DNA of 41,079 nucleotides, taken from Poronia punctata. Lineage: Eukaryota > Ascomycota > Sordariomycetes > Xylariales > Xylariaceae. The stretch covers positions 1 through 41,079 of the forward strand of contig MU401742.1 in the NCBI GenBank assembly GCA_022579005.1. Direction: 5' to 3'. The first letter of the stretch is position 1. The number at the start of each line of letters is the position of its first letter. Position numbers and translations under genes: made by a program. The notes below the pieces were generated by a model, which saw only the letters and a program-made list of their open reading frames with translations, was not told the DNA's origin and made no database searches. This document shows, piece by piece, positions 1 through 41,079 of this stretch.

Positions 1-40
1 AGCTTTAATAATAATAATAAGCAATATAAGACTTTTAATT

Positions 41-262
41 ATTAAAACTAGCAAAATAGCTAAATTATATATATTAATTAATATATATATAAAAAGGTCT
101 AATTTCTTTTTTTTATAAAATTTGTATATACTAAATAAGTAAAAAAAAACCTTTTATAAAAAAACCTTTTCTTTTATAGTAGTCTTTACTATAGCTATAT
201 AACTTTTACTATATAGGCATTATATTAATTCCTGTTATCTTATAACTTATTAGATCTAATAT
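41..262 (+). repeat. Dispersed repeat, left copy
   Basis: This segment aligns over its full length with 37156-37378 in the same orientation, with roughly nine in ten positions identical by eye. Most differences are A/G or C/T transitions, as RIP would produce. After it, the left copy runs into the minisatellite at 264, while the right copy continues into unrelated AT-rich DNA. The shared part may therefore be one end of an element, such as an LTR or 5' region. Confidence 0.8.
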
Positions 263-263
263 T

Positions 264-640
264 TAGTTCCCCGGCTTCCGGCCTTAGTGCCTTTAATCCC
301 CTGGTCTTTAGTTTCCTAGCTCCTAGCCCTAGTGCCCCTAATTTCCCGGTCCCTAGTTTCCTAGCTCTTGGCCCTAGTGCCTTTAATCCCCTAGTCTCTA
401 GTTTCTTAGCTCTTAGCCTTAGTGCTTTTAATTCCCCGGTCCCTAGTGCTTTTAATTCTTTAGTTTTTAGTGCCCTTAATCCCTTAGTCTTTAGTGCCCT
501 TAATCTTTTAGTTTTTAGTGCTTTTAATTTTTTAGTTTTTAGTGCTTTAGCGCTTAGCTTTAGTACTTTTAACCTTTTAGCCTTTAGTAATCTTAACTTT
601 TTAGCTTTTAGCATTAGCAATTTTAACTTATTAGCTTTTA
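264..640. repeat. Minisatellite with 24-bp and 45-bp units
   Basis: Tandem units of 24 bp (for example tttagtgcccttaatctttt) alternate with 45-bp units that share the same core. The array is GC-richer at 264-440 (runs such as cccctagtccc) and fades to T-rich versions toward 640, with C replaced by T on the + strand. The reverse strand is open for 126 codons, giving an artificial Lys/Leu/Ala/Arg peptide with 8-residue repeats. That is a by-product of the repeat period being a multiple of three and is not called as a gene. Confidence 0.8.
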
Positions 641-3600
641 ACTTATACTAAGTAGCACTTATAATTACTTAATAAGCGTAAGCTAAGCGCGCACTTAACT
701 AATTAAAAAAAGGTATAAAAAATAACATTAACTAAAAATTTTTTAATTTTAATATTTAAAAGTAGTACTTAAAACGTAAAACTTAGTAAAAGCACTTTTT
801 ATATAAAAAAATTAAAAAAAAACGTTTTTTAAAAAATTTTAATAAAATATTAAATTTTTTTATTATTTTAAGTCTTATATATACTAAAACGTTTATAACT
901 ACTTTATAAGCTTTAATTGCTATTTTTAATATAAAGTATTAAAAAATAACTTAGTAAGTATTTATTTAATGCTTAATAAATAAAATATTAAAGTTTTAAT
1001 ATAATTATATATAAAACTAGTTAAAAAGCTATATTAAAAATAATGCTTTTATAGCTTATTTTAACAACGCTACTGTTTTTATACTAAATAGCATAATATT
1101 AACTAAAATTTATAAGTAATAATTATAAAACTAGTTTTATTAGTTTTATAATTATTTAAAAAGCTATATAAATAAAAAAGCTTTAAGTAAAAAAGCTAAA
1201 TATTATTATATTTATATATTTGTTTTTTTTTATATTTTTATATTGCTTTATTAATAATATATTTAATAAAGCTTTAAAAGCAATTAACTTTAAAGTTTTT
1301 ATATTACTTTTATACTAGTAACTAAAACTAAATACTTTTAAAAAAAGCTTAAAACTTATATATTATATATTACTAATTAATACTATTATATTTAACTTTA
1401 AAAATGTTTGCTAAATAAGTAAACTACTTTATATATTTAATTTAATTAACTTTATTATTACTACTTTTTATTTATATATAAATAAAATAAAATATTTTAT
1501 TATATTATTAAAGTACTTTGTTTATTATATTTTTATTTTTTATATTTATTTAAAGTAATTTATTTTTATATTATTTAAGCGTAGCAATTTTTAAAAAAAA
1601 ACTTTTAGTTATAAGTTTAATAATATAGCTAAAAAAGCTAAAATTAACGCTATATTAGCAATAAAAAATATTATACTAGCTTTTTTTTTTATTATAAATA
1701 CTAGCAATAATAATAATAATAATTAAATATTATAAAGTAGTAGTAGTAAAGTTTTAGTTTTAGCTTTAGCTTATAAGTATTAAGCGTTTTTTTTGCTTTT
1801 TTAGTGCTTTATTATATAAAAATAGCAAGTATAAGTATAAGAAGTTTAACGTTTTTTTTAATACTTTTAGCTTTGCTTTTTTACTTTTTTATATTATAAT
1901 TATATACTTTATTTTATTAAAAGTATATATTATCTTAGCATTATTTTTATTTAATTACTTATAATAACATTTTAATATTTTTAAAATTATAATAACTTAA
2001 GCATTTTAAGTAAAATATTTATACTTATAACTTTAAAAAGTAAGTACTTATAAGTAAGTAGTTAATTTAAGTAAGTAATTAACTTTTAATTTTTTATTTA
2101 GTTATATTAAGCAATATAAAAATACTTATTTATATATTATAAATAATATTAAATAAAGCAAAACTTGCGTTAAGAGCTTAAATAAGTTTTATAATATATA
2201 AAAAAGCAAAATTAAAGTAAAAAAAAAAAAAAAATATTTATATATTATAAAACTGCTTTTTAAAAAATATAAATACTTACTTATAACTAACTATAAAAAG
2301 CAGGTTTTAAAATATAGTACTAGCTAAAAGCTTTTATAAAATAAAGTTATAAGTTTAGCTTAAAATAAATTTATTTATATTTAACTTTAAAAGCTTATAA
2401 AATAAGTAAGCCTAATTATAATATAATATTTTATAATAATATAATAGCAACTTTTATAACTTACTTATTTTTATACTTTATAAACTACTTTTTACTTACT
2501 ACTTTTACAATGTTTAAGTAAAAAAAAAGTAACTATTTATAAGCATTTATATTATATATAATACTTATATTAAATAAGTAAATAAATATAAATTATGTAG
2601 TTTGCTTTTTAATATATTATAAGTACTTAATATATATATTTTTGCTTATAAAGTAAGTAGGTAATAAAAACGTTATTTAAGTAAATAAATAAATATATAT
2701 ATTTATATTAGCATAAAAAAGCTAAAACCTTTTTTTTTTACGTTTAAAGTTACTTTAAACTTTAGTTTAGCTAGCTTTTAGTTTAAGTTAAGTTTATAAA
2801 AATAAATTAATACTTTTTAGGTTTTATATATGCTTAAAAAAGGTTAATTTTTAAAAATAAAAATTAGTTTTAAAAAAAAGAAAAAGTATATATATTAGTA
2901 AGCTTTAAAAAAAAAAAAAAAAAGCTATGCTTACTTATTTAGTTAGCTTTTAATATAAAAAAAAAGCATACTTATATTAGTTAGTTTTTAATATAAAAAA
3001 AAAAAAGTATATATAATTTTGCTTTAAAGCGTATAATTTTACTATACTTATTAAAAAATATTTTTTTTTATATAAGATTAAAGTAAAAATCTTTAATATA
3101 AGTAAAGCTTTATACTTTAAAGCTTTAATACTTTTATTTTTAATATTATTAAAGTTTTATACTTTAAAATTTACTATTGCTTTTAAAAGGTTTTATATTT
3201 TTTTGCACTTATTTTTAGCATTGCTATTAGTATTGCAAGTAAAAATGCTATTTTAATTAGTATGCTATATTAGCTATTTAGCTACTATTACCTAGCTTAA
3301 AAAAAAGCAATTTAGCAAGCTTAAAAGCAAACTACTAAAAGCTATAGTACTAAAGCAATGTTTATAAAAAAAAATAATAATAATAATAATAGTAATAATA
3401 CTAGAAAAGAAAAGAAAAATAAAAGTAATAATATTTTAGCAAAGCTAAAATTTGCAATTATAAGTCTTATTATTATTAAAATATAATTATAAGTATTTAT
3501 TAAAGTTAATGCTAACTTATTAATTAGTATATAAAACTTTAGCCTTGTTAAACTTAATAAAACGTTATATTAAATTTAAAAAAAGTTTACTTTATTTTTT

Positions 3601-6600
3601 AAAGCTTTTAATTTAAATATAAACGCTAAAGCAGGTTTAGCTAGTTAAAATAAAAAACTTTTTGCTTTTAAAAAGCTATAATAATTAGCTAACTATTAAA
3701 ATATTAAAAAAAAATATTTAAAAATAAAATGTTTAAGTTTAATAAAAAGAAAATAAATATTAATATTTTAGCAATATTAAATATTAGTAGTACTAATATA
3801 ACATTAAATATATTTATTTTTTACTTTAAGCTTTTTATTAAAAAAGTAGCTAAAGTAAATAAAAGCGTAATAAGTTATGCTTATTAAAAAAAATAGTTTA
3901 TTAAAAATAAATTAATTAAAATGCTTTATTAATAAAATATAATATTGCTTTTTAATATTTATATAGCTTTTAACATTTAAGCTTAGTTAAACAATATTTT
4001 TAATACTTTATACTGCGCTTTTTGCTAGATCTTTTAAATAAATATTATAGTAAAAATATTAATTAGCAACTTTTTTTATAATATTACGTTCTTTTTTATA
4101 GCTATAAAAACTTTAAAAAAAGCTATTTATAAATAATTGCTTTTTCTTAAAATATAAACTGCCTTTATATTTTTTTGCTTAAAAAAATATTTTTATATAA
4201 ATAATAAACTAGTATAGCTTTTATTTAAAACTTATATTTTTTTAATTTTATTAACTATATTAAAACGCTTTTATTATTTAAGCTTAAAAAAACATATACT
4301 TTAATATTATAAAACTAGTTAATAAGCTTAAGGATTTTTAATAATTATAAGCCTAGGCATTTTTAATTTAAGCAATATTAAGTTAATTTATATATTATAA
4401 TAGCTAGCTTATATTACTATTTAATTTTATAGTATATAAATACTATTAAATAAATTATTAATTTTATAGCAATAACTTAGTAAATAAAACGCTTTTTAAG
4501 CATAAAGGTTAAGTTGTTAAAATATAAAAAAATTAATATTTTATAAATAACTAACTTAAGTATAAATAAAGTTAAAAGTAAAAAATAGTAGTTATTTAAA
4601 TTAAGCTTATTGCTTATTTTGCTAGCACTTTAATAGTGTTTAAAGCATTTTAAAATACTTTAAGTACTAAAAGATTTTTTAAAAAGTTTATTTTAAATAA
4701 TAAATAAGTATTAGTTAAAAACTTGTTTTATTTAGTTAAAAATAGCTAAATTTTTAAAATTATTAACTTAAGCTTAATTTTTATTAACTATTTATTTAGC
4801 AGCTTTGTTAGCTTAAAGCATAATTAATATAAAAACTAGTTTACTAACTATTATATTAAGTTTTTAATTTATTAAAAGTTAAATAGTGCTTTATAATAAT
4901 TTATTATTATAATTAAAAGTATTTTAATTTAAAGCAAGTTAAAGGTTTTTAAGTTTACTTAGTAATTATTAGTAAAATTCTTTTATAAAAAAAATGTTAA
5001 AATACTTATTATTTTTTTTATTTTTTTTGCTAATAGGTTTAAGCTTTATAAAATAATATATAAGTTTATTATAAGCATTTATTATTTAATTATAACTTTT
5101 AAACGCTTAAAATGCTTGCAATAAATAAATATTATATTAATTATACTTAGTTTTTATACTTTTAATAATAATAAAGTATAAATATAAATTAGTAGCAAGC
5201 TTTATAAGCTTAAAAATAGTTTTATTACTAGTATTAATAGTAAGCTAATATTTATATACAGTTATATTTTTATATTAGCAAAAAAAAAATTTTTATAATA
5301 AAATAACTTAAAGTTTTGTTGCTTTATTACTAAGCAAAGCTACTATATATATAAAGTAAGCTTAACTAATTATAGTAACTTAAACTATAACTTAATAAGT
5401 AGCAAGCACTTGCGCTATTATTATAAAGTTTTTTATTAAAAAGCTTTTTTTTTAATATTAAAAATTAAAAAACTTATAAAAAATATTATATTATAGTTTA
5501 GCCTTGCTATTAACTATTTTATATTATAATTAGTTTTTTTTACTTTTAATATTATTAAAACTTATTTTATAAACTTTGCTTATTTTAAATATAGTAAACT
5601 TATAAAAATATTATATTTACTAATTATAAACTAGGTTTTAATATTAATAACTTATAATAAGTATTTAAAAGTACTTTAAACGTTTTTTATATAACTTAGT
5701 TAAAACGTTTTTTAATTGCTTTATTATATATTATAATATATTTTAGCTAAATATAGTTATTAGTTAGCAATAGCTTTAATTTTATTTTGCTTATAATTTA
5801 AATTAAAGCTTAAATATATTAAAGCAAGCTTTTTAAAAGCTATTATATTTATTTTTGCTTTAAAGTTAAATTATTTATTTAGCTTAAATATAATTAGTAT
5901 TAGTTTTATTAATATTTTTATTAAGGTTTTAGTTAAAAATGTTTAAATAAATATTTTTTTAATACTTAACTAGCTTTTAGCTAATAAAAAAAAGTATAAA
6001 AGCTTTAAAGCTTAAGTTAAGCTAAGTTGCAGTTTTTTTTAAAAGCTTATTAACGCTATAGCTAATATTACTTTATTTTATTAAAGTTATTTAGTTAATA
6101 ATACTTTAACTTTAACTTTACTTATAATTACTAATAGTATTAAAGTTATTAAAAGTAGTTTTATAAGTATTAGTTATACTATTACTATTTAGTTTATTAA
6201 AAAAATAAAAAATCTTTAGCTAGCAATAAAACTAGTTAAGTTAATAAATATAAAAGCATTAAAATATAAGTTATAAATATTTAAATTTAATATATATATT
6301 AAGCTATACTATAGTAGCGTTATAAATAAATATAGCCTTGTTTTTATTTTAATAGTTTTTATATATAAGCTTAAATATAAGTAAGTATTGCTTTTTTATA
6401 TTTAATGTTGCTAATATATTTTAAGCTATAAAAAAAAATTATTTATATAACTAATTATAAGTTTTTTAAATAAAACTTTTTTATATAAAAAAACTTTGCT
6501 TAAATAATAAGATTTATACTATTTAATATATATAAAAAAGCATATTTTAAGCTAACTAAATAGGTTAAAACGTTATATTAAACTATTTTAATATTGTTTT

Positions 6601-8281
6601 TAGCAATACTTAAAAGTAAAAAAAAAGTTGCTAGCGTTATAAGTGCTAATAACTTTATTAAGTTAGCTTTTAAAAGTAATAACTTTAATATAATAAAGCT
6701 AATAATAAATAACTAATATTTTAATATGCGCATTTTTAGTTGCTTAAAGGCCTTATTTATTAATAAGTTTTAATTACTAATAAAAAAGTTTAATATAAAA
6801 AAAAGCTTTTGCTATTTTTTAGTTATTATATATATAATTGTTTATAGTTGCTTAATTATAATATTTAAAACTTAATAAGTTATTAAGTAGTAAAAAAAAA
6901 TAGCTTAAAATAATAAGTAAGTACTTAACCTTATAAAGTTATATGCTTTTTTTTTAATATACTATTTAGTTAACTTTTAATTATTTAAAAATTTTATTTA
7001 GCTATTTTTTAAAAAGACTTTTTTTTTATACTTACTTTTTATTGCTATTATTTATAGCAATCTTTTAAGCTTTAAAAGTTATATATTATAAAGCATTTTT
7101 TTATATATTATTACAAGGTTAACAAAAAAAGCGTATATTTTAGTTTAAATCTAGTTATATTTTTTTTTTTATAAATAAAGTATTTTTTTTATAAAAGTTT
7201 TATATAAGGTTTTAGTAAATAAAGAAAAGGCTAGATTAAACTTGCTTATATTTTAATTACTTATAAATATAAAAATAAAAAATTTATAAAGCATATTATT
7301 AAGCAGCAAAAGCAATATATTTTATAAAAACCTTTTAGCAACAATTTTACTATATATTATAGCTGCTTAAATTATATTTTTATTTATAAAGCAATATAAA
7401 ATACGTTTAAAACTAAATAATCTTTTTTATTAGTATATATACTAATTTATATAATATTTTATTATTTTTTAAATAAGTTTAAACAATTTTTATATTTTTA
7501 CTATTATTTTGCTTATTATAACTAATATAGTTAACGCTAAAGTTAATTTGCTTATAAGCTTTAAAATTTATAACTATAGCTAATTAATTATTTTAAGCCT
7601 TTTTTAAATTTATACTTAAGTTTACTATATAGTTTTATTTATAAAAAATAAAGCTAGTAATTAAAAATTTATTTAAAAAACGGATTTTATAAAAAATAAT
7701 AATTATAAAGTATTGTTTATAAACTAAAACTTAAGCTTTATATAACTAAAGGTAATAAAATTAAAAGATTTTTGTTTATATATTGTTAAAGTTAATAAGA
7801 AGATTACTTAATGCTATAAGATTAACTATAAAATTTAAACTATTACTTAACATAAACTTAAATATTAATATAAAATATAATATATAAAAGCTATAAACAA
7901 CTATATATTTTTAATATTTAAAAATAAATAAACATTTAAAATTTCTAATAATAATATTTAAATAATAATAGGAAATTTAAACATTAAATAAAAAAAAACA
8001 ACAAGGAATTTTTAACAATAAAACATTATAAACGTTAATAAAATTTTATTATTAAAAATTGCTTATTATTAAAAAACTTTTAGCGTTAAAAATTTTTAAC
8101 TATTAAAATTTTTTTAGTATTAGAAAATTTTTAACGTTAAAAAAACATTAACAATGCAAACATTATAACAATAAACAATAATTAACGCTAATAATTTTTT
8201 ATTAATTTAAATATTTACAACGTTTATTTACTTTAAACAATTAAATTTCCTAAGTAGTAGCTAAACAAAAAAGCTATTTTC

Positions 8282-9434: not shown

Positions 9435-11620
9435 ATGGAATCCCCATCTCTCTGTGCCGTGTGCTCAGGCTCCCTCCTTAATCACTCGGGGATCCTACAA
9501 GCAGGGGACTCGAAAGAGGGAGAACAAATGTGGCTATTCCAAGGCCATGCAGATCTCACCAGTCTCCAGACATCACGCGACGCAGAATGTCCGATATGTG
9601 TTTTATTCTGCCGACTTTTAAACGAGGAGCAGGAGGCTTTTTTATCCTCGCCGGAGATGACTGTGGAGAATGAGATATTGACTTTCATGATGGTTTGGAA
9701 AGATGAGTCGCTTGATGCGATAGGTGTGTCGATTGAGGAATGCTGGTTTCTGGCGGTTTCGTTTTGGGAATTGCCTGATACGTGGCCTGGTTCGGGACCG
9801 CAGGTTCGGTTTGTGCTTGAGCCTATTGAAGGTATGTTAAGTTTTGTGTTTCAAGTTGCTTTTGCAGAATATGGATAGGGAGTAATTACGCGTGATAACA
9901 TTCAATGCCGGGTATAGACGCAGTACCTGAACCCATCACATCAGACTCAACCGCATCGAAAGAAACATGGGAACAAGCAACGAAATGGATAAACACATGT
10001 CTCACGACTCACACACACAATCAGATATCTCCAAAGTGGTATCCTACCCGTCTGCTCTCCGTCGACACGGACCTCATTCAACTAATCGACACCTCAACAT
10101 CCATAATCCCAGGAAGTGGAAGCGAATACGTAACCCTAAGCCATTCCTGGGGAACAGCAAACGTCCTCAAACTAACAAAAACAACATCCACTCGACTCCG
10201 CAACGGAATCCCCCTCTCTTCCCTACCCCTCACATTCCAACACGCTATCCAAGTAACCCGCAGACTGGGCCACAAGTATATCTGGATAGACTCCCTATGC
10301 ATATACCAAGACGAACACGACAAATCCGACTGGTTGCGCGAAGCCCTCCTAATGGACAAAGTATACCAGCACTGCGCGATCAACATTGCCGGGACAGGAG
10401 GAAAAGACAGCACGAGCGGACTCTTCTCCCCCACTCGGCGAAACCCAAATCTGGAACTCCGCACCGCGAGAGTCAAATGGTTAGAGAAGGAATACCTCCT
10501 CACAGACTGGGGATTGCTCGAAAGAGAACTCCGTTCCGCCCCGCTGAATATGCGGGGCTGGGTCTTGCAGGAACGACTTCTCGCCCCGAGGATCTTGCAT
10601 TTCGGGAGATGGCAGTTATTTTTCGAATGCGATCAAGGGGGTGTCCTATGCGAGAGATTCGTCGAGAAACTACCGAGGTCTTTGCAGAGGGTGAATACGA
10701 AATATTTCTCCTCTCTGCAGACGGGCGGAGGGGATGTGTATAAACTGTGGGGAGGGATTGTAAGATCATATTCAAGGACTAAACTTACATATCCCAGCGA
10801 TAAACTCGTCGCCATTGCCGGTATAGCGAAAGTCATGCGCGCGCGACTAGGGGATGAAGATGAATATGTAGTGGGGATGTGGAGGAGCCGTTTGGCCAGT
10901 CATTTATTGTGGCAGGTTTCTTCATCTTCATCTTCGCCTTCTTCCTCTGCCTCGCGCAAGCCGAGTTGGTCATGGCTCTCAGTTGATGGGGAAGTTGATT
11001 TCCCGCGCACGAGAAAGGATGAAGAGATGATGATTGAAGTTATGGATGTCCAGGTACAATATGCCACAAAGGAGATCACGGGACCCGTCACAGGAGGACA
11101 GATAGTGTTGAGAGGAAGACTGAGACCATTACAGCTTCGCAAAGCGGTCGTGAGACTCGGTCTAGAAGATCTAGACGAGGAGACGAGAATAAAAGTTCAA
11201 GAACATGGTGTATCTCTGGATGATTACGTCAGGGAAATTCCCCGGGTTTGGACTATGAACGTCGGGGGACAAGATTTGGAAATGCCGACAGGGGAGGTGG
11301 AAGATCGGATTGGACCGATTGTTCGGTTTGATTTCTCCGTTACTTCTTCTTCGTTTTTCGACCAGATGAATAAACGGGGAGAGTTATTCGTCATGTCTGC
11401 TGGTGGTCCGTATGAGGATTTTCAGTTTCATACGCTTCTTATTCTCAAGTGTGTTGATAAGGACAAAGGGAGGTTTGTTAGGATTGGCTTGGCGGCTTTG
11501 GATACGGTGGAAAAGGCGGAGATTTTTGCGGAGTTGAAGAGGTTGGATGAGGGCGAAGATGGTATGCCTTGTGTGGAGTATGATGAGGGGAGACATTTGC
11601 ATACTATTGTTCTTGAATAG
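9435..11620 (+). CDS. HET-domain (heterokaryon incompatibility) protein
   Basis: Two exons are proposed: 9435-9831 and about 9924-11620. A short intron begins with GTATGT at 9832 and ends at AG 9917 or 9923; both keep frame, and the second gives 697 residues. The N-terminus has the CAVCSG...CPIC cysteine pairs common before fungal HET domains. The HET domain follows: YVTLSHSWG near residue 201, YIWIDSLCIYQD near 251, an INIAGTGGKDSTSGLF stretch, and RGWVLQERLLAPRILHF near 343. HET proteins trigger cell death after fusion of genetically different hyphae, or act more broadly as immune effectors; the partner here is unknown. The start was chosen because the cysteine motif begins directly at this ATG. 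A 60-codon upstream ORF (9228-9410) ends 25 nt before it. No frame damage is seen. HET genes often sit near repeat-rich DNA, as here. Confidence 0.9.
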
Positions 11621-31649: not shown

Positions 31650-34600
31650 ATGGCGGGCGTTCTGGACTCCTTTCTCCATGGGGCCCAGCGTGGTCTTGTC
31701 ATGAGGCCTATTTTCGGCGAAATCTTGACCATCTGGTTCAAGGATTACGAACAGTCAACGCACGATGCTATAGTCGATACCGTTCAGAGGCTAGACAGGG
31801 AGATAAAGGAAAAGCATTCGGAAGACTCTGCTTTTGTCGCTGCATTCGCTCCTTCGCTTTGGGGCAAATGGTACGACCGCGATATCCCCATTTCGACCAA
31901 GGTCCTCGACGGAGGCTACAACTTTCAAAATACTGGCGGTGATGCCCTGATCTACATCAAATCGCCGGATCATGCCACGGCAACCGAGCTTTCCGAGTTC
32001 GTCCGCGGCCGACTAGGTCCAGTCACCGATAAGATAGACCACCTCCCGGTCGGGAAGCGCCGTGACGGCCGTGTCCTCGGAGGCCGTTATGTCGATCACA
32101 TCAGCAATCCAAACGACCCGATTAGCTTGTCCGAAGACATCTTGTTGCCTGGGCCCGGAGTCGAACGTGGCGCCACCTTTGGCTTCACCCAACAGTTCGT
32201 TTTCGACTGGCCCGACATTTCCACCCAGTCCGGTAGCACTTTGGATGCCGTCATCGGGCGTAGGCCGGATGGAGAGATCATCTCCCAGCAGGTCTTCCAG
32301 GGAGCAAACTCCCATATTCGTCGAGCACACACGCTAGATCACAACCTCGACCAGCGAAAACTACTGCGCCAGGCTCTCCCGTACGGCGACTCCAAGGGAC
32401 ATGCCAGCCGTGAAGCGGGTCTCATGTTCGTGGCCTTCTGTAACGAGCAGCAGCGGTTCGAGGACATTCTCCAGAACATGATCGGAGACCGCAACGAGAG
32501 GCCTGCCGACCGCCTCCTGGACTTGGTTCAGGGCACTGGCGGTAGTTATTGGTATATTCCCTCGGCTACCGAACTGGGCGTCTCGGGCGTCAGGAACGGA
32601 GACGACACATACGAGGATCCTCATTGGCGGGTCCGCAGTCCCAACAATTACATGTTCTATAACTCACAGGACTACATGCACACCATGTCGGAGAAGAAGT
32701 ACATCGACAAGGAGGACACACCCAGTGTGCGCGTCCTGAGCCTACTGTCGAGGACCTTCAACCACTGGAGAGACGGTTGGATGACGACGGAGCACTTTCC
32801 ACGCTTGCCGCATCTGAAAGAAGTGCTCGCCAAGGAGAACAGGACCGTGCCGGAGCCGATCCTCGAGCGCAAGGGACTTGCCAACATGGTCACTCTCGCT
32901 GATCTTCTCTCATCGCCAGATTCCCCCATCGCCAAAAAGACAGGGTTGACCCGGATTGCCGCCAAGGAGCTCATCGTTGGCGCCATCCCCGACTTCACTT
33001 TGGGTAGAGGAAAAGAGGTTGTGCCGTACTTGACCGATGACGAGACTATGGCCGCATATATGAAGGCCAGTCTCAACGAATGGGCGGCCATGGGCCACGT
33101 CGTGCCCAATATGCAGACCGTCGTCGACAATGGCGTGGCCGGCATGGTCCACAAGCTAGATGCCCTAGCGAGGGAGGCAAGCGAGAAAAAGGAGGCTGAT
33201 AAAGCATCATTCTACATCTCTGCCAGAGACTCCTTCGTGGGCATCCAAGGCTACCTCCGGAACTGGTCTAAGATCGCCAGTAATGCCAGCGAGAAGGTCG
33301 CCGACAAAGCGGACAAGGAAAACATGCAGGACGTTGCGAAGCGTATGGAGCGCCTAGCAGACCACCCCCCTTCTAGTTTCCAGGATGCTGTTCAGCTCAT
33401 TTTCACATTGCACTGCTGTCTTCACCTGGTAGGCGAGCTGACGGCAGTTGGTCGAATCGACCAGGTCCTCTGGCCCTTCCTCGAGCGTTACCCCATTCCA
33501 GACGAGCTTGCCCAGGAAATAATCGACTGTTTGTGGATCAAGATTGGCGAGAATGCATTTGTCAACCGCGCTTTCATATACGATTATAGGACGTATGGCA
33601 CGACATCCATCAACGGCGTGGGCGGTAACTTCCCTCAGGGTGGCGGTAGTAAGTGGTCCTCTAGATCTTCCCCCCCCCCCCCCCCTCTCGGATTCCTTGT
33701 AATCACATTTCGAGATAGGAAAGGCTAATACTCGATACTTGCAGTCAACCAGTGGGTACAGCAGATCACTGTTGGTGGATATAAGGCCACCGATGATGAG
33801 GTGCCCGAGAGTGGCGCCAACAAGGTCACGCTTTTGTGCTTGAAGGCAGCACGTCGTATCCCGGTCAACGCGCCCAGCTTGTCCCTGCGGTTGCACAAGG
33901 ATATGCCTGATGTATACATTCAAGAAGCGGCCAAGTCGCTACTGGCTGGCGGAGCTCACCCCGTCCTGTACAACGACGACAGACTATGCGAGGGTCTCTA
34001 TAACGCCGGAGCGACTGTCACTAAAAAGGTAAGTTCACAAATCCTCTTCGAACATCTGATGGACTGCGCGCATGGTTTTCACCTCCAGTCGCCGACCTGG
34101 GACCAAACACCTCTCCTGCATCGCTACACTAGACCTTGCCGTTGCTAACTCACGTCTTCGCAGTGGTCCCGTGACTATTCGGCCGACGGGTGTTATGAGC
34201 CCATGTTTACAGGAGCTTCGGAATTCGTCTTTGGCAACGTCACTCCCATGCTAGCCCTAGAGCAGGCCCTCAACCAGGGTGCGACCTATGGCTCCGCAGG
34301 GCCGGTATACCTGCGCGGTCTGAAGCAGACATGGCGGTCTTCTCCCGTCTTTGAGATCAAATCTTTTGAAAAACTACAGGAAATTTTCCTCGAGCAGCTC
34401 AGGTGGGGTATCATCTCGGCTTACAGTTTCATCCTCAACAACTACGGAAACCTGGAGGACATATGCCCCTCGCCGCTGCTTTCCGCCGTGCTCGACGGTT
34501 GCGTCGAGTCGGGCCGTGATCTAACGTCGGGCGGGACAAAATTTCATATTGGTACGTGTCCTCATGTTCAGGGAATGGCTGCTAGTCGTTCAACGAGTGC

Positions 34601-35523
34601 TAACATTGCGGGTCTCAGTTGCGCCGCTATGCGTCGGTATAGCAAACACCATCGACTCGCTGTACGCAATCAAGAAGTTATGCTTCGAACCTGAGTCGGC
34701 ACGAGTTACACTGCCGGAGCTGCTCCGGTGCCTCATCTGCGACTGGGGTCACAGCATGATCGAGCCGTTCCAGGACTCGACCCTAGGGCCGGCCAATGCC
34801 GCCGAGAAGGCGGTGCGGTACCAGGAGCTACGTGAGGTAGCGCTGGGACTGCCCAAGTGGGGAAGCGGCGCGAAGGACGAGGACCTCGGCGAGCTAGGAA
34901 CGTGGCTCATCGACAATACGGTGCGGTTATGCGTAGACGTGTTCCGCAAGCCTGTGAAGCCACTTCAGGACGCGTTGGACAGGATCGAGAAAAAGTACGG
35001 GCCCAACTTCGAGTTTACCCTGACACCCGGAATTGGCACCTTCGAGGGCTACGTGGGCGACGGACTCGGTTGCGGCGCGTCGGCTGATGGCCGCCGGAAT
35101 GGCATGCCCATCGCCTCCGACCTTTCGCCAACCCCAGCCGCGCAAGATCTCCCCGCGGCCCCGGCGCACCGTGACATATACGAGTCCATGAAGAGCTACG
35201 CCATCAAATCGGTCGAGACGGGTATTTCCAACGCCGCACCTGTCGACATGAACATTCCCGAGATGTTCCCAGTCGCTAAGCTGCAGCAATTCGTCAAGGA
35301 TTTCGCCGAGAGCAAGGTAGGTGGGAATATGCTTACCTTGACGTGCGCCGACCTCGAGACATATCAGAAGGCCTCGGAAGATCCAGAAAAATATAACCTT
35401 ATCCGTGTTCGCATGGGCGGCTGGACGGAATTCTACTCCACCATGTTCCCAGATTACCAGGAAACGCAACAGCGGAGGCAGTATTTTGAGGTTGATGTCC
35501 CAAAAACAGCAGAGGTTGTCTAG
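31650..35523 (+). CDS. DyP-type peroxidase fused to a glycyl radical enzyme
   Basis: Exons 31650-33648, 33745-34028, 34164-34551 and 34619-35523 give 1191 residues; introns are 96, 135 and 67 nt, GT...AG, with matching phases. Residues about 20-310 are a P-type (YfeX-like) DyP heme peroxidase: distal Asp149 (RYVDHISNP, both glycines of GxxDG changed), proximal His222 (SHIRR), Arg240 (KLLRQALPYG), GLMFVAF and GGSYWYIP. After a linker (about 312-355), residues 356-1191 are a glycyl radical enzyme: ELIVG, GHVVPN, GGNFPQGGG, the active-site loop GCYEP (Cys771, Glu773), ADGRRNGMPIASDLSP, and glycyl loop RMGGW (Gly1158). GCxE fits dehydratase/lyase GREs, not pyruvate formate-lyase (Cys-Cys). The domain junction lies inside exon 1, so the fusion does not depend on splicing. 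ATG 31650 has A at -3 and G at +4. Third-position G/C is common, unlike the AT-rich DNA 370 bp downstream. No activase is nearby. Substrate unknown. Confidence 0.9.
33670..33685. repeat. Poly(C) run in intron 1 of the fusion gene
   Basis: Sixteen C in a row inside the 96-nt first intron, about 20 nt from the 5' splice site. It is prone to sequencing and replication length errors but is non-coding under the proposed model. Confidence 0.85.
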
Positions 35524-35894: not shown

Positions 35895-37091
35895 TGGCCA
35901 CAAGCGTTATAAAATCTACAAGCGTTGTAGATATATTAGTACTAGTAAAATCTACAACGCTTGTAGATTTTACAACGCTTGTTAAAATTTACAATGCTAT
36001 AGACTACTATAACTAGCCCTTATAGTTGCTATAATAATGCTTTTAATTATACTGTTATATTTGCTTTTATTTGCTATTTAACTTAATGTTAAAAATTACT
36101 TTATATTAAATATTATAAAAGCTATTTAATTTTAGCTAGCTCTTTATAGTTTATTTTAATATAGCTAATTTAAACACAGCTAGCCTTTTATAGCTTATTT
36201 AATCTAAGCTAGCCCTTTATAGCCTTTTATAGCTTATTTTAATATAGCCAGCCTTTTAAAACCTTTATAATTAGCTTTATATATAAGTATAAAGGTTATA
36301 TAAGCTACTTACTTAGTTAATTAGTTAGTTAGTTAATTAGCTAGTTAGCTAGTTAGTTATATATATAAGTTATAATTAATTAGCATATATTACTTTAACT
36401 AAAAGCTATACTAAAAGCTACTTTAACTTTACTATACGCTAGCTACTATAGCTAAAAAGTAACTTTATATATTATATAAAGACCTTATAATTAAAAGTTA
36501 CTTTATAGCTATAGCAGCTAGTATAAAGCAAGGTTAAAGTAGTTTTTAGTAGCTTTTAAGTATAGCCTTTAAGTATAGCTTTTAGTATAAAATAAAAGGC
36601 TAGATAAAAGGCTAGGCTATTTTTGCTACGTGCTAGCTAGCTAAGCTAAAAAGTAACTTTATATATTATATAAAGTCTTTATAATTAAAGGTTACTTTTT
36701 AGCGTTAGCAGCTAGCATATAGCAAGGTTAGTATAGCTTTTAGTTAAAGTAGTAGTGTATATAAAGGTAATAGAAAAATAACTATATAATAAGGTTAGAA
36801 ATTTTTTTCAAGTTTAAAGTAGTAGCACTAAAGTTAACTTAATAGCTTTTAAACTAAGTAAGAGGCTAGGTTATATATATACAGTACAAATTTATATATA
36901 AAGGTATATAATCTAAGGTTTTAAAAGGTAATGTACTAAAAATATAGCATATATAGCATTGTTATTTGCTAAAGTTTAGCACGTAAGCCTTAGACAGAAA
37001 ATAAATATACTTTCTTTATTAAATTGTATATAATAGTATCTACAGTCCTAGAAATTTACAACAGCTGTAGATTTTACAACGGTTGTGGCCA
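35895..37091. mobile_element. 1.2-kb element with inverted ends, probable non-autonomous DNA transposon
   Basis: The first about 38 bp (starting TGGCCACAAGCGTT) reappear inverted and diverged at the end (37057-37091, finishing GGTTGTGGCCA), giving terminal inverted repeats. Each end carries several copies of the near-palindrome ACAAGCGTTGT/ACAACGCTTGT. At the left end two of these form a 33-bp inverted repeat with one mismatch (35900-35932 and 35950-35982, the inner 22 bp perfect). The interior is AT-rich, has about 45-bp tandem repeats around 36120-36260 and two copies of a palindromic unit of roughly 105 bp (36438-36540, 36632-36740), and codes for nothing. A target-site duplication is not clear, so the superfamily is unassigned. 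Confidence 0.6.
36438..36740. repeat. Duplicated palindromic unit
   Basis: Two copies about 195 bp apart, at 36438-36540 and 36632-36740. Each is an imperfect inverted repeat centred on tatatattatataaag, with arms resembling aaaagtaactttat and ttaaaagttactttat. They would fold into long cruciforms or hairpins. Confidence 0.7.
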
Positions 37092-37155
37092 TTGTACAAC
37101 GCTTACAGCCATTGTAGCCTCCTTCAATTTCCCGCTACAATAGGTTACAACTTCT

Positions 37156-37378
37156 ATTAGAACTAGCATAAATAGCTAAATTGTATATATTAATTAATGT
37201 ATATATAAAGAGGTTTAACTTCTCTTTTTTGTAAAATTTATATATACTAAATAAGTAAGGAAAGACCTTTTATAAAAAGACCTTTTTTTTTATAGTAGTC
37301 CTTATTGCAGCTATATAACTTTTACTATATAAGCATTATATTAATTTTTATTATTTTATAACTTGTTAAATCTAATAT
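37156..37378 (+). repeat. Dispersed repeat, right copy
   Basis: Same-orientation copy of 41-262. Differences are mostly transitions. The right copy keeps G in many places where the left has A, but has T in others where the left has C, so each copy has mutated independently. It begins about 65 bp after the inverted-end element. Confidence 0.8.
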
Positions 37379-40300
37379 ACCTTCTTAAAATAAGCTAACA
37401 TACTAGTTTATTTTATAGCTGTAAATAATACTTTTATTTTATAATATTATAGCTTTTATAATAATAGTTATAGTGTTTTAAATTGTTTTAATTTATTTTC
37501 TTAGTTTTCTTACACTTTTATAGTAATAAGCTAGTTAATTTTAGTTTAAATAACTTTAACGTTAACTAAATTAATTTATTATAAGAAGCTTGCTTACTTA
37601 TTTTGTACTAAAAACTTTATAAAACTATTTGCTATTATTAAATTTATTAGTATATAAATTACTTAAAGCATTTTGTTAATTACTTTTTAACGTAATTAGT
37701 AGTTATATATATTAACGTGCTATAATTTTATTTTAAGTATTATAATATTTTTATTTACTAAATTAATAGTTTGCTAGTTATTATACTAAATAGTAATATA
37801 CTTTTATTTTAAATTAACGCTAAGCTTATTAATAAGCTAGCTAATAAACATAGCTTCTTTTATAGCTTAAGCTAACGTAAAAAGCTTAGCTTTAGTTATA
37901 AAAGTAGTAATAGTATTTTATTTATTTACTTTTTAACTAATAAGTTTATTAAAAAAAAGCATTATATATGCTTATAAGCTCTTTTAATTAATAGTGTTAT
38001 TAGTAAATAATAAATTACTAGCTACTTTAAGCCTATTTTTGTTTTTAAACTATAAAGCAAAGCGTTAATTTGCTTAAAAATAGTTTAATACTTAGTTAGC
38101 AGCAGCGTAGTAAGCAAAAAAAAGGTTATTATTAAATTATAAAAGCTATAACGTAATAAAAGCAATATTTAGTTTAATAATAACTATAGTATATATAATT
38201 AATTTAATTTTGCGTTAATAGTAACAAACTTTTTAATAAGTAGTAGTTTTTTTATAAAAAAGCAGCTTAATAAATCTTATAAAAGTTAATAGTATTTTAC
38301 TTAAAAAATTACTTAATTTATATATTTTCTTAATATATATAGCTTATAATAGCTAAATTAAGCTTTGCTTGCAGTTTTAAATAATTTTTATACTTAAAAA
38401 CTACTTTAAATTATAACCTTTAGTTAGTTAATATTAGTTTTTTAATTTTTTAATAGCTATAAAAGCTTTAAATTTGCAAATTTTTTAGTAAGCAAGCATA
38501 AAGTTGTTAATATATATAAATAATAATATTTTATTTTTAATAAATATACAAGGTTTATAAAGCACTAGCTTAAATCTAAGCTTTAAAAGCGTTAATATAA
38601 GCTTTTTTTGCTATAAAAGTAGTAATTTTTATAATTTATAAAAAGCTTTTAAAAGTTATAAAATATGTTTTTTTTTTTTGCAGCTATAAAGCATTTTTAT
38701 ATATATTAGTTTTTAAAGCAATACGTTAACAAAAGCGTTAACTATATTATATTATTTTAACTTAAAGTTAAACTTAGCTATAATAGCAGCTAGTATTTTA
38801 AAAAACTTTTTAGCTAAAATAAAAGCATATATATTTTTATATTTATTTATAAACTATTAGTTTTTTTAAACTATAATTTATACTTTATACTTTAAATAAA
38901 AGCTTTTTTTATTAAACTTGTAAATATATACTTATATATAGTTTAAAATTTAATATTTTTTAGCTATATAAGTAAAAACTTTTTCTTAAAAGCTTATTTT
39001 ATTATAACTAGCTAAATAGTTGTTTTTAGCTTTAAAAAACTTACTTTTTAAAAAATAATTTTTAAGTTTTTTATATAATCTTAAAAGCAGCAAAAGCTTG
39101 CTTTAATATATAAAAATATTTTTTTTAATTTTTTTTTTATAAAAAAACTATAGCAGCTAGTTTATATAATTTCTTTTTATTTTAAAAGTATTATTAAAGT
39201 AGCATAGTAAACATTTAAACGCTTTAGCTTTTGCAGCTTTGCTTACTTATATACTATACGCTAATTTAAAAGTATATAAGCGTTTAGTATTAAACATAGC
39301 TTTTTAGCATTTTGTTTATTTATTGTTATTAATATAAGCTTTTTAGCTTAATTTTAATAGTTTAAGTAGCTTAGCAAAAAAAGGTAAAAGGTTTTTATTA
39401 ACGTATATATCTTTTAAAGTAAATAAACTATTATTACGCTTATTATTTATAAATATTCTTGCTTAACAGGCTTTAAGTAAAGCAAAAAACTTATTATAAC
39501 GCTTATTAAAATTAGCATTTTTAATTGCTATAAGCATTATTGTATTAAAAAAAAACTATAAAGGTATAAAATATAATTAAAATTTTAAGTTAGTATAAAA
39601 GTAATTAGTTTTATTAAACTTAAAGTTTTTAATATTTTTAATACTTTGCCTATTTACTACGCTGCCTTTAGCTTTTAAATATTATAATATATATTTTATT
39701 TTGTTTTTATCCTTATAAAAGTTAGTATTTTAATATTGTAATTTAAACTTAAAGATTAAGGTCTTGTTTAAAAAATTTAATTTATAATAAATTTGCAATT
39801 AAGTATTTAAAGCTTATCTTTTAGTTTATTAAGCTTTTTATTAAATATTTAGTTTTTATTAAATCTTATGTTTTTAGTTTAAATTACTTAATTAGTTAAA
39901 AAATTCTAAATTTTATAAATATTAGTTAACTTATAGCTAACAAAATAACCTATTTAAGCTTTAAAGCTTAGCTTTAAAAAACAATTTTTTTTTCTTTATA
40001 TTAGTAGTAAAAGCATAAGCTTTATATTTATAAACTTATAAATAGTTAAGCTTTAGTTTTTTAATTTTAATATAGCTGTCTTAAAACATAAAATAAGTAT
40101 AAAAATGTTTATATAAAGTTTTTTAATAAAATATATATTTAAGTGTTTAGTTTAATAAATATATTATAGCTTTGTTAATTTTAATTTAAAAAGTTTTTAA
40201 AAGCTTTGCGCTAGTTTTTATGTACTAAGCATGCTTTTTAACTATTTAGCTAAATTGTTTGCTAGCATTGTTTTAAGCTTAAGTATTAAGTGCTAAGATT

Positions 40301-41079
40301 TTTAGTATAATAAGTGCTTTATTAACTAAGTAGTTTATAACTATTTATAATTATAAAAATTATTTATTTAATTTAATAATAATAACTTATTTTTTATAAA
40401 CTATTTATACTTTTTTTATAAAATACTTAAGTAACATTTTTAGTATGTTTATATTAAGGCTTTATAAATAGTAATTAAATATGTGCTTAAAATATTTTTT
40501 AATTATAAAAAGCATTAATACTTTATTATTAAAACTTTTATTATAAAAATGCTAATTTATAGTAATGTGCTTAAATAAATAATTTAATTAGTTTTTAAGT
40601 ACTTTATTAATTTAGTTTTTAAGCTTTTTATATATATACCTAAAGTAATTTATTAATTTAATGTTTTAGCTTAAAGATTTTTTAATTTTTACTTTTTTTG
40701 CTTAGCTTATTAGGTGCTAAAGTATATTAAAACTTAGGTAGCTAAGCTAAAAATGCTATTTAAAAAGATTTGCTTTAAAAGCAAGCTATTTAATATATTT
40801 TGTATATATATTTTTTTAAGTATAAAAAAAGGCTTTATTTATATTTAGTAGTAAATATTTTAAAATATATTAGTTATACTTATTTTATACTTAATATAAT
40901 ATTAAGTAATTAAGTTTTTTAAAATAGCTTTTTAGTAGCTTTATATTTTATTAAATCCTTTTTTAAGTAAAGGTATAAAAAAAAACAATATTTATTATAA
41001 AAGTTTTATAATAAGCTATATTTTTAAGCTTTAGTATAAGTAGTTTTTTAGTTTTTTAAACTTTTATATTAACGTTTTT
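37379..41079. repeat. RIP-like AT-rich block (right flank)
   Basis: Extremely AT-rich, TpA-rich DNA with stops in all frames runs to the end of the window. No gene or RNA is visible. A short stretch near 38690-38750 (ataaagcattttt ... gttaacaaaa) resembles 7090-7130 in the left block, so more than one segment may be shared. Decayed transposable elements are the likely origin. Confidence 0.85.

Follow-up and report, generated by a model that had tools for sequence, protein, structure and literature searches.

Predicted DyP-type peroxidase and glycyl radical enzyme domains in one gene of the fungus Poronia punctata, and the coupling of this radical enzyme clade to DyP in three forms

The window analysed here is the whole of a 41,079-nucleotide stretch of contig MU401742.1 of the fungus Poronia punctata (assembly GCA_022579005.1), in which reading-frame and splice analysis places a gene of four exons at 31650-35523 of the forward strand, encoding a product of 1191 amino acids. 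In the predicted product, a P-type dye-decolorizing heme peroxidase (DyP) is followed by a glycyl radical enzyme (GRE), and the key residues of both are retained. GREs, so far known mainly from anaerobic life, rely on radical S-adenosylmethionine (radical-SAM) activases that are sensitive to oxygen. In the GRE clade of this gene the link to DyP takes three forms: a fusion with a P-type DyP, a separate EfeB-like DyP gene lying downstream, and a fusion with an Alr1585-like DyP. In most of the genomes that carry the clade (25 of 29) no activase was recognisable. The best explanation, put forward tentatively, is a gene of bacterial derivation whose DyP domain would activate the GRE domain by peroxide-driven radical formation. 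The fusion itself is already known from passages of an earlier paper (Zamocky et al. 2016, PMC5041501); the wider pattern, one clade with three DyP linkages and a mostly undetected activase, looks new.

The gene model consists of the following parts:

31650..33648, forward strand: exon 1, an open frame from the ATG at 31650, with the entire DyP domain and over one third of the GRE sequence
33649..33744, forward strand: predicted intron 1, GTAAGT...TTGCAG, with a branch-like site
33745..34028, forward strand: exon 2 of the gene model
34029..34163, forward strand: predicted intron 2, GTAAGT...TCGCAG, with a branch-like site
34164..34551, forward strand: exon 3, which holds the active-site cysteine
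34552..34618, forward strand: predicted intron 3, GTACGT...TCTCAG, with a branch-like site
34619..35523, forward strand: exon 4, which holds the glycyl loop and the stop codon

The three predicted introns are of the GT-AG type, all with CAG acceptors, and each has a CTAAT or CTAAC branch-like site close to the acceptor. The splice sites tried left 84 stop-free combinations, among which the model was picked on consensus donors and likeness to other GREs; its single exon boundaries are predictions, and the chosen model agrees with a later alignment to intronless bacterial homologues. Since exon 1 alone spans the peroxidase and runs into the radical enzyme, the fusion is independent of any splice choice. 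The splice sites being predicted from sequence only, two neighbouring genes or a contaminant might be mistaken for a fusion, an explanation to which we give practically no credence and which was rejected: no stop interrupts exon 1 where it passes between the two domains, the domain order and length of the fungal product recur in bacterial fusions that lack introns, and the intron-like interruptions and the size of the host assembly (45.05 Mb in 573 contigs) speak against a bacterial contaminant. An earlier note on this window had claimed one frame running from a P-type DyP (Asp149, His222, Arg240) into a GRE with GCYEP and RMGGW motifs, interrupted by spliceosomal introns in the GRE half; frame, residues and motifs were found at those places, as were the introns, which are predicted ones.

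Domains and key residues are located as follows:

31758..32576, forward strand: DyP-type heme peroxidase domain (amino acids 37-309), from TIGR01413, Dyp_perox_C and the fold match of the AlphaFold2 model
32094..32096, forward strand: Asp149, distal heme-pocket acid, kept in at least 90% of the 17 aligned DyP rows, fused and split together
32313..32315, forward strand: His222, proximal heme ligand, invariant in all 17 of these rows
32367..32369, forward strand: Arg240, distal heme-pocket arginine, likewise invariant in 17 of 17
32691..35520, forward strand: glycyl radical enzyme domain (about amino acids 348-1191), split by the three introns
34191..34193, forward strand: Cys771 of DGCYEP, the predicted thiyl-radical cysteine, kept in 26 of 26 family rows
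35419..35424, forward strand: Gly1158, where the glycyl radical is predicted to form, with Trp1159, a residue specific to the family, in RMGGW; GGW stands in 26 of 26 family rows

The DyP half belongs among the P/B-type DyPs, with D149, R240 and H222 as predicted heme-binding peroxidase residues. The family profile TIGR01413 (Dyp_perox_fam) matched amino acids 37-309 with 121.7 bits (cut-off 100.5), Dyp_perox_C matched amino acids 147-306 with 75.7 bits (cut-off 20), and the AlphaFold2 model of this half (pLDDT 78.5, pTM 0.84) found P/B-type DyPs as its best matches in the PDB. The position of Asp149 is taken by glutamate in three relatives (L028, L006 and L059). Two residues past Arg240 (32373-32375) the product has alanine, and its fused relatives in the alignment have alanine, threonine or glycine; by DypB numbering, this is the place of the distal asparagine of DypB. 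Variants of DypB at D153, R244 and N246 appear in the titles of PDB entries.

The second half of the predicted product is a divergent GRE. The PFL-like (pyruvate formate-lyase-like) barrel profile gave 318.4 bits on amino acids 467-979 (cut-off 24.3), and both an active-site cysteine (C771) and a C-terminal glycine (G1158) were found, the latter in a loop that aligns with the other family rows and keeps its glycine in 26 of 26. The active-site cysteine and a glutamate two residues on are present in all 26 aligned family rows (DGCYE in 25), and in all 26 the radical loop reads GGW and then T, S or N, against [AS]GY in 7 of 7 conventional GREs. The cysteine and glutamate were not selection criteria for these rows; the glycine loop was one for 21 of them, picked by the RVRMGGWTE DNA pattern, whereas the window gene, L006, L035, L059 and L062 (and also L007) were not so picked. 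None of the curated GRE subfamily models tried (PFL2-3, CutC, HypD, PRK09983 and others) was matched above cut-off, TIGR01774 coming first with 189 bits for a cut-off of 678.2. The domain search proposed in the earlier note thus gave matches to both halves, with PFL-like, Dyp_perox_C and TIGR01413; the Pfam profile Gly_radical (PF01228) stayed below its cut-off on the 1191-residue product (13.5 against 22.2 bits). The GRE half might be a scaffold or binding domain for the peroxidase that no longer carries out radical chemistry. The Gly_radical score, the altered loop and the lack of a detected activase in most family genomes would agree with such a role, which we consider quite improbable: cysteine, glutamate and glycine are kept in 26 of 26 rows from several phyla (with the glycine loop as a selection criterion in 21), and a scaffold would need none of them.

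The coupling of this clade to DyP was seen at 29 of 32 family loci, and the remaining three (L015, L024 and L030) are truncated on the side that matters; the frames that hold the GREs of L015 and L030 in the complete genomes are 1361 and 1209 amino acids long, which is the length of fusions. Where the GRE stands alone, a DyP is encoded directly downstream: all 8 open reading frames (ORFs) scanned there (L008, L011, L016, L020, L022, L027, L031 and L032) carry the two DyP domains of Pfam above cut-off, and L009 also has a downstream DyP by profile. Partial DyP matches of 34.6, 47.4 and 73.5 bits were obtained at L010, L026 and L060. The flanks of conventional GRE loci held a DyP in 0 of 23 cases within 1.5 kb on each side of the match, that is, by estimate, about 0.5-1 kb past the gene ends, and some of these 23 loci share a genome. 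Profiles A8 and A9 were built from part of the loci that they then matched; the Pfam result of 8 in 8 is independent of them.

Three DyP classes take part, their names (P/B, EfeB-like, Alr1585-like) being assigned to molecules named by the structure matches. The profile of the fused DyPs matched P/B-type structures best (top score 126.6 bits), while that of the split DyPs scored 159.5 bits with EfeB-type structures and no more than 43.9 with any P/B-type row. The third class occurs in a distant fused DyP-GRE of 1304 amino acids from a Flavobacterium in the order of genome G020 (L062:145-4059), whose DyP is Alr1585/DyP2-like (258.1 and 208 bits) and whose GRE half has GCWEP and RVGGW and is 27% identical to the Poronia GRE half. 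In 16 of 17 genomes searched (of 29), the linked DyP was the only DyP found, using a single profile that scores Alr1585-like DyPs weakly. The separate DyPs of L022:1-1684 and L031:3645-5609 have C-terminal extensions that by eye resemble a HAD-type phosphatase domain; Pfam reported no such domain in them at E 0.001.

Gene neighbours vary between the family loci. Phospholipase-D-like genes lie near four of them (L007:13863-15644, L016:2510-4291, L031:6118-7908 and L028:6168-8000), and a phosphoesterase lies on both sides of L014 (269-1765 and 5657-6907); these neighbours, from several phyla, are perhaps a hint to the substrate. Fused or adjacent enzymes are often sequential, and the four phospholipase-D-like genes hint at one shared substrate class, so that DyP and GRE could act one after the other on a single compound. 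This metabolic coupling is judged improbable, since three DyP classes in two arrangements are harder to fit to one specific DyP substrate and the missing activase is left unexplained.

The search for an activase used TIGR02493, the profile of the PFL activase (PFLA), which was above cut-off in 4 of 29 family genomes (3 of the first 25 and 1 of 4 added: G003, G018, G025 and G634). These are exactly the family genomes that hold a conventional GRE (697-725 bits) beside the activase; the other 25 gave no activase over the TIGR02493 cut-off and no PFL-like match outside the family, L062 being counted in the family. Such a perfect 4-in-29 split has odds of 1 in 23,751 by hand calculation if the genomes are taken as unrelated, and is weaker evidence than that since G018 and G025 are both Andreprevotia. 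Two conventional-GRE genomes used as positive controls (G351 and G377) both passed the activase profile. TIGR02494, run on the fungus and on 25 of the 29 family genomes (all except G272, G606, G634 and G836), was above cut-off in one of these 25 (G003).

The best sub-threshold TIGR02493 match was identified in 20 of the 25 activase-less genomes, one match per genome, second and weaker matches in several of them lying outside this identification. Seventeen of these matches exceed the cut-off of another radical-SAM family (4 AmmeMemoRadiSam, 4 NrdG2, 3 MoaA, 2 QueE, 2 PqqE and 2 RlmN), two are QueE-like under cut-off and one has no family assignment; the other five genomes had no TIGR02493 match at E 0.001. 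No single radical-SAM family is common to all genomes among the 20 identified matches. The 40 ORFs scanned at the family loci contained no radical-SAM domain; the DyPs account for 8 of them, and some of the 40 do not lie directly beside the gene. Nor do the feature lists of L006 and L007 name a radical-SAM gene. These results do not support an ordinary GRE with a neighbouring activase. The fungal genome yielded no PFL-like gene besides the window gene, TIGR02494 found nothing in a scan that does not handle introns, and a radical-SAM scan gave five matches, a count left incomplete by ignoring introns. One radical-SAM gene of this genome (L003) by eye resembles viperin.

The main rival to activation by the peroxidase is protection by peroxide scavenging, in which the DyP would remove peroxide or oxygen-derived species around an ordinary GRE activated by an unrecognised radical-SAM protein, such as the PflX-like L005. 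DyPs do consume peroxide, the Chaetomium DyP-PFL was induced 3-fold by hydrogen peroxide and 18.5-fold by peracetic (peroxyacetic) acid, and a putative PFL activase is mentioned for Chaetomium in the same passages (PMC5041501). The Poronia genome contains a PFLA-like exon of its own, in L005, by a weak TIGR02493 match of 27 bits obtained with introns not handled. L005 is a PflX-like radical-SAM protein by eye, and may be the counterpart of the Chaetomium 'activase' as mentioned in that source. We nevertheless hold protection to be rather unlikely, given that 25 of 29 family genomes have no activase over cut-off, that most of the best residual matches belong to other radical-SAM families, that the ORFs scanned at the family loci lack a radical-SAM domain, and that general catalases would serve as well.

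Activation of the GRE domain by the DyP domain would proceed in a few steps. Hydrogen peroxide and the DyP heme would form compound I, which would take an electron and a proton from the GRE by way of aromatic residues, perhaps the tryptophan next to the glycine; Trp1159, in this position, could relay an electron hole that starts at the heme. The outcome would be a glycyl or thiyl radical such as radical-SAM activases make in anaerobes, and the GRE half might then run an elimination-type reaction of the kind known from glycerol and propanediol dehydratases and choline lyase. Radical generation as the purpose of the coupling, the relay path, the reaction and the substrate are what we infer; the folds and residues of both halves, the three forms of DyP coupling, the altered loop and the lack of a recognisable activase in most family genomes are observations. 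The PFL activase is known to bind the RVSGY loop, and the altered glycyl loop of the family fits an altered activator. More tentative still is the wider proposal that a heme peroxidase replaced the radical-SAM activase independently with three DyP classes, giving peroxide-switched GREs of a class-I-like kind in aerobic bacteria and fungi. If true, this would give glycyl or thiyl radicals a second mode of formation, in mostly aerobic genera, and would make powerful C-O, C-N and C-C bond chemistry usable in air.

Several points weigh against activation by the peroxidase, besides the limits given above for the flanks, the profiles A8 and A9, the identified matches, the L005 exon and the Chaetomium activase. 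Oxygen is expected to cleave a protein at the glycyl radical. Since 21 rows were selected by their loop motif, the GGW of these rows is not independent evidence. Together with the low Gly_radical score of the product, this profile gave no match over the whole fungal genome, the window gene included; a fragment of relative L007 reached 22.7 bits, barely above cut-off. The heme region and the glycyl loop have low confidence in the AlphaFold2 model. Finally, the presence of six other radical-SAM families in the activase-less genomes (NrdG2 and AmmeMemoRadiSam with four each) makes activation in trans possible.

Relatives were collected using the RVRMGGWTE pattern on one genome per species (84,980 species), which gave 26 loci, all 26 holding a relative of the GRE half, and using tblastn on plasmids, which yielded a fused protein from Asticcacaulis (L006, 33%) and, from Hymenobacter, a GRE with a DyP next to it (L007). 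The genera among the 26 include Massilia, Janthinobacterium, Azohydromonas, Andreprevotia, Collimonas, Ensifer, Sphingomonas, Flavobacterium, Hymenobacter and Pseudomonas, and most genera carrying the family GRE are known as aerobes. Poronia punctata was the only fungus in the genome collections searched. Fused proteins with the same two-domain order, for which the earlier note had suggested a search, occur in proteobacteria; the nearest share 60-65% identity with the Poronia product over the GRE half and 49-57% over the DyP half. The family was rare in whole-genome profile scans, with 2 of 398 Pseudomonadota genomes (the centre included), 4 of 399 genomes of the order of G010 (G010 and G018 being known beforehand) and 2 of 395 genomes of the order of G020 (the centre included); in the Pseudomonadota scan a wide score gap separates it from conventional GREs (1112 against 239 bits). 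On the Hymenobacter plasmid (L007:10028-13367), GRE and DyP are spread over several frames and may be decaying or misassembled; L007 and L019 both have broken frames.

A quick tree, with long outgroup branches and an unsure placement of L062, sets the family apart from 7 conventional GREs (support 97), groups the 9 split GREs (99) and groups the fused GREs with the cut row L010 (99). The Poronia gene and, as its sister group, 7 fused proteins of proteobacteria make up a clade of eight with SH-aLRT 100. This fits the acquisition of a bacterial DyP-GRE gene by the fungus, as a transfer from bacteria was proposed in passages of Zamocky et al. (PMC5041501).

Elsewhere in the window, very AT-rich stretches (13-24% GC) occupy 1-8000 and 36001-41000 on either side of the gene-bearing part, as in fungal genomes with repeat-induced point mutation. 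An open frame at 9899-11617 looks by eye like a HET (heterokaryon incompatibility) domain protein.

No other report of a DyP-GRE fusion was met among the titles and abstract starts of the literature searched, which largely leaves out subscription journals and preprints. Strittmatter (2014), as cited by Zamocky et al., reportedly found a DyP-PFL fusion in other organisms. The statement of the earlier note that no example was described is contradicted by the DyP-PFL fusion published in 2016 for Chaetomium cochliodes, which was classed as DyP type B with a PFL domain, has its closest relative in C. globosum (89% identical), and was inferred to come from proteobacteria by transfer (PMC5041501). 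The observation made in the note is thus confirmed and its interpretation only partly supported; the lack of an activase, the other two forms of DyP linkage and the change in the glycyl loop go beyond it. As far as the passages of PMC5041501 considered here go, the Chaetomium fusion and the Poronia gene are of the same kind: both are fungal, with the same domain order, a claimed bacterial origin and a noted glycyl-radical region. They differ in that the Chaetomium table gives 'none' in the presumed intron column, against three predicted introns in Poronia, and the split pairs, the other DyP classes with this GRE, the missing activase and the GGW loop do not occur in these passages.

The P-type (B-type) DyPs DypB, DtpB, YfeX and KpDyP are the best PDB relatives of the DyP half. 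Compared with DypB, by the DypB numbering, the fusion retains the Asp, His and Arg with the same Asp/Arg spacing, and differs in having Ala (Ala, Thr or Gly in relatives) for the distal Asn and in being attached to a GRE. For the GRE half, the best PDB relatives by profile and fold are the B12-independent glycerol and 1,2-propanediol dehydratases and the choline trimethylamine-lyase CutC. These share the GC-x-E active-site motif with the fusion, and the N-terminal GH motif is also found in glycerol dehydratase, whereas the family GRE is fused or adjacent to a DyP, has no activase found beside it, carries GGW for [AS]GY and is about 20% identical to them. A parallel in logic is class I ribonucleotide reductase. 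There, a metal cofactor of the oxygen era initiates the radical in a barrel enzyme; the anaerobic relatives of that enzyme rely on a glycyl radical and a radical-SAM activase. The cofactor of class I sits in a di-iron or manganese protein and not in a heme peroxidase, and the large subunit has no glycyl domain, which the fusion keeps. On the proposed mechanism, DyP would play for GREs the part that the oxygen-dependent small subunit of class I plays for ribonucleotide reductase.

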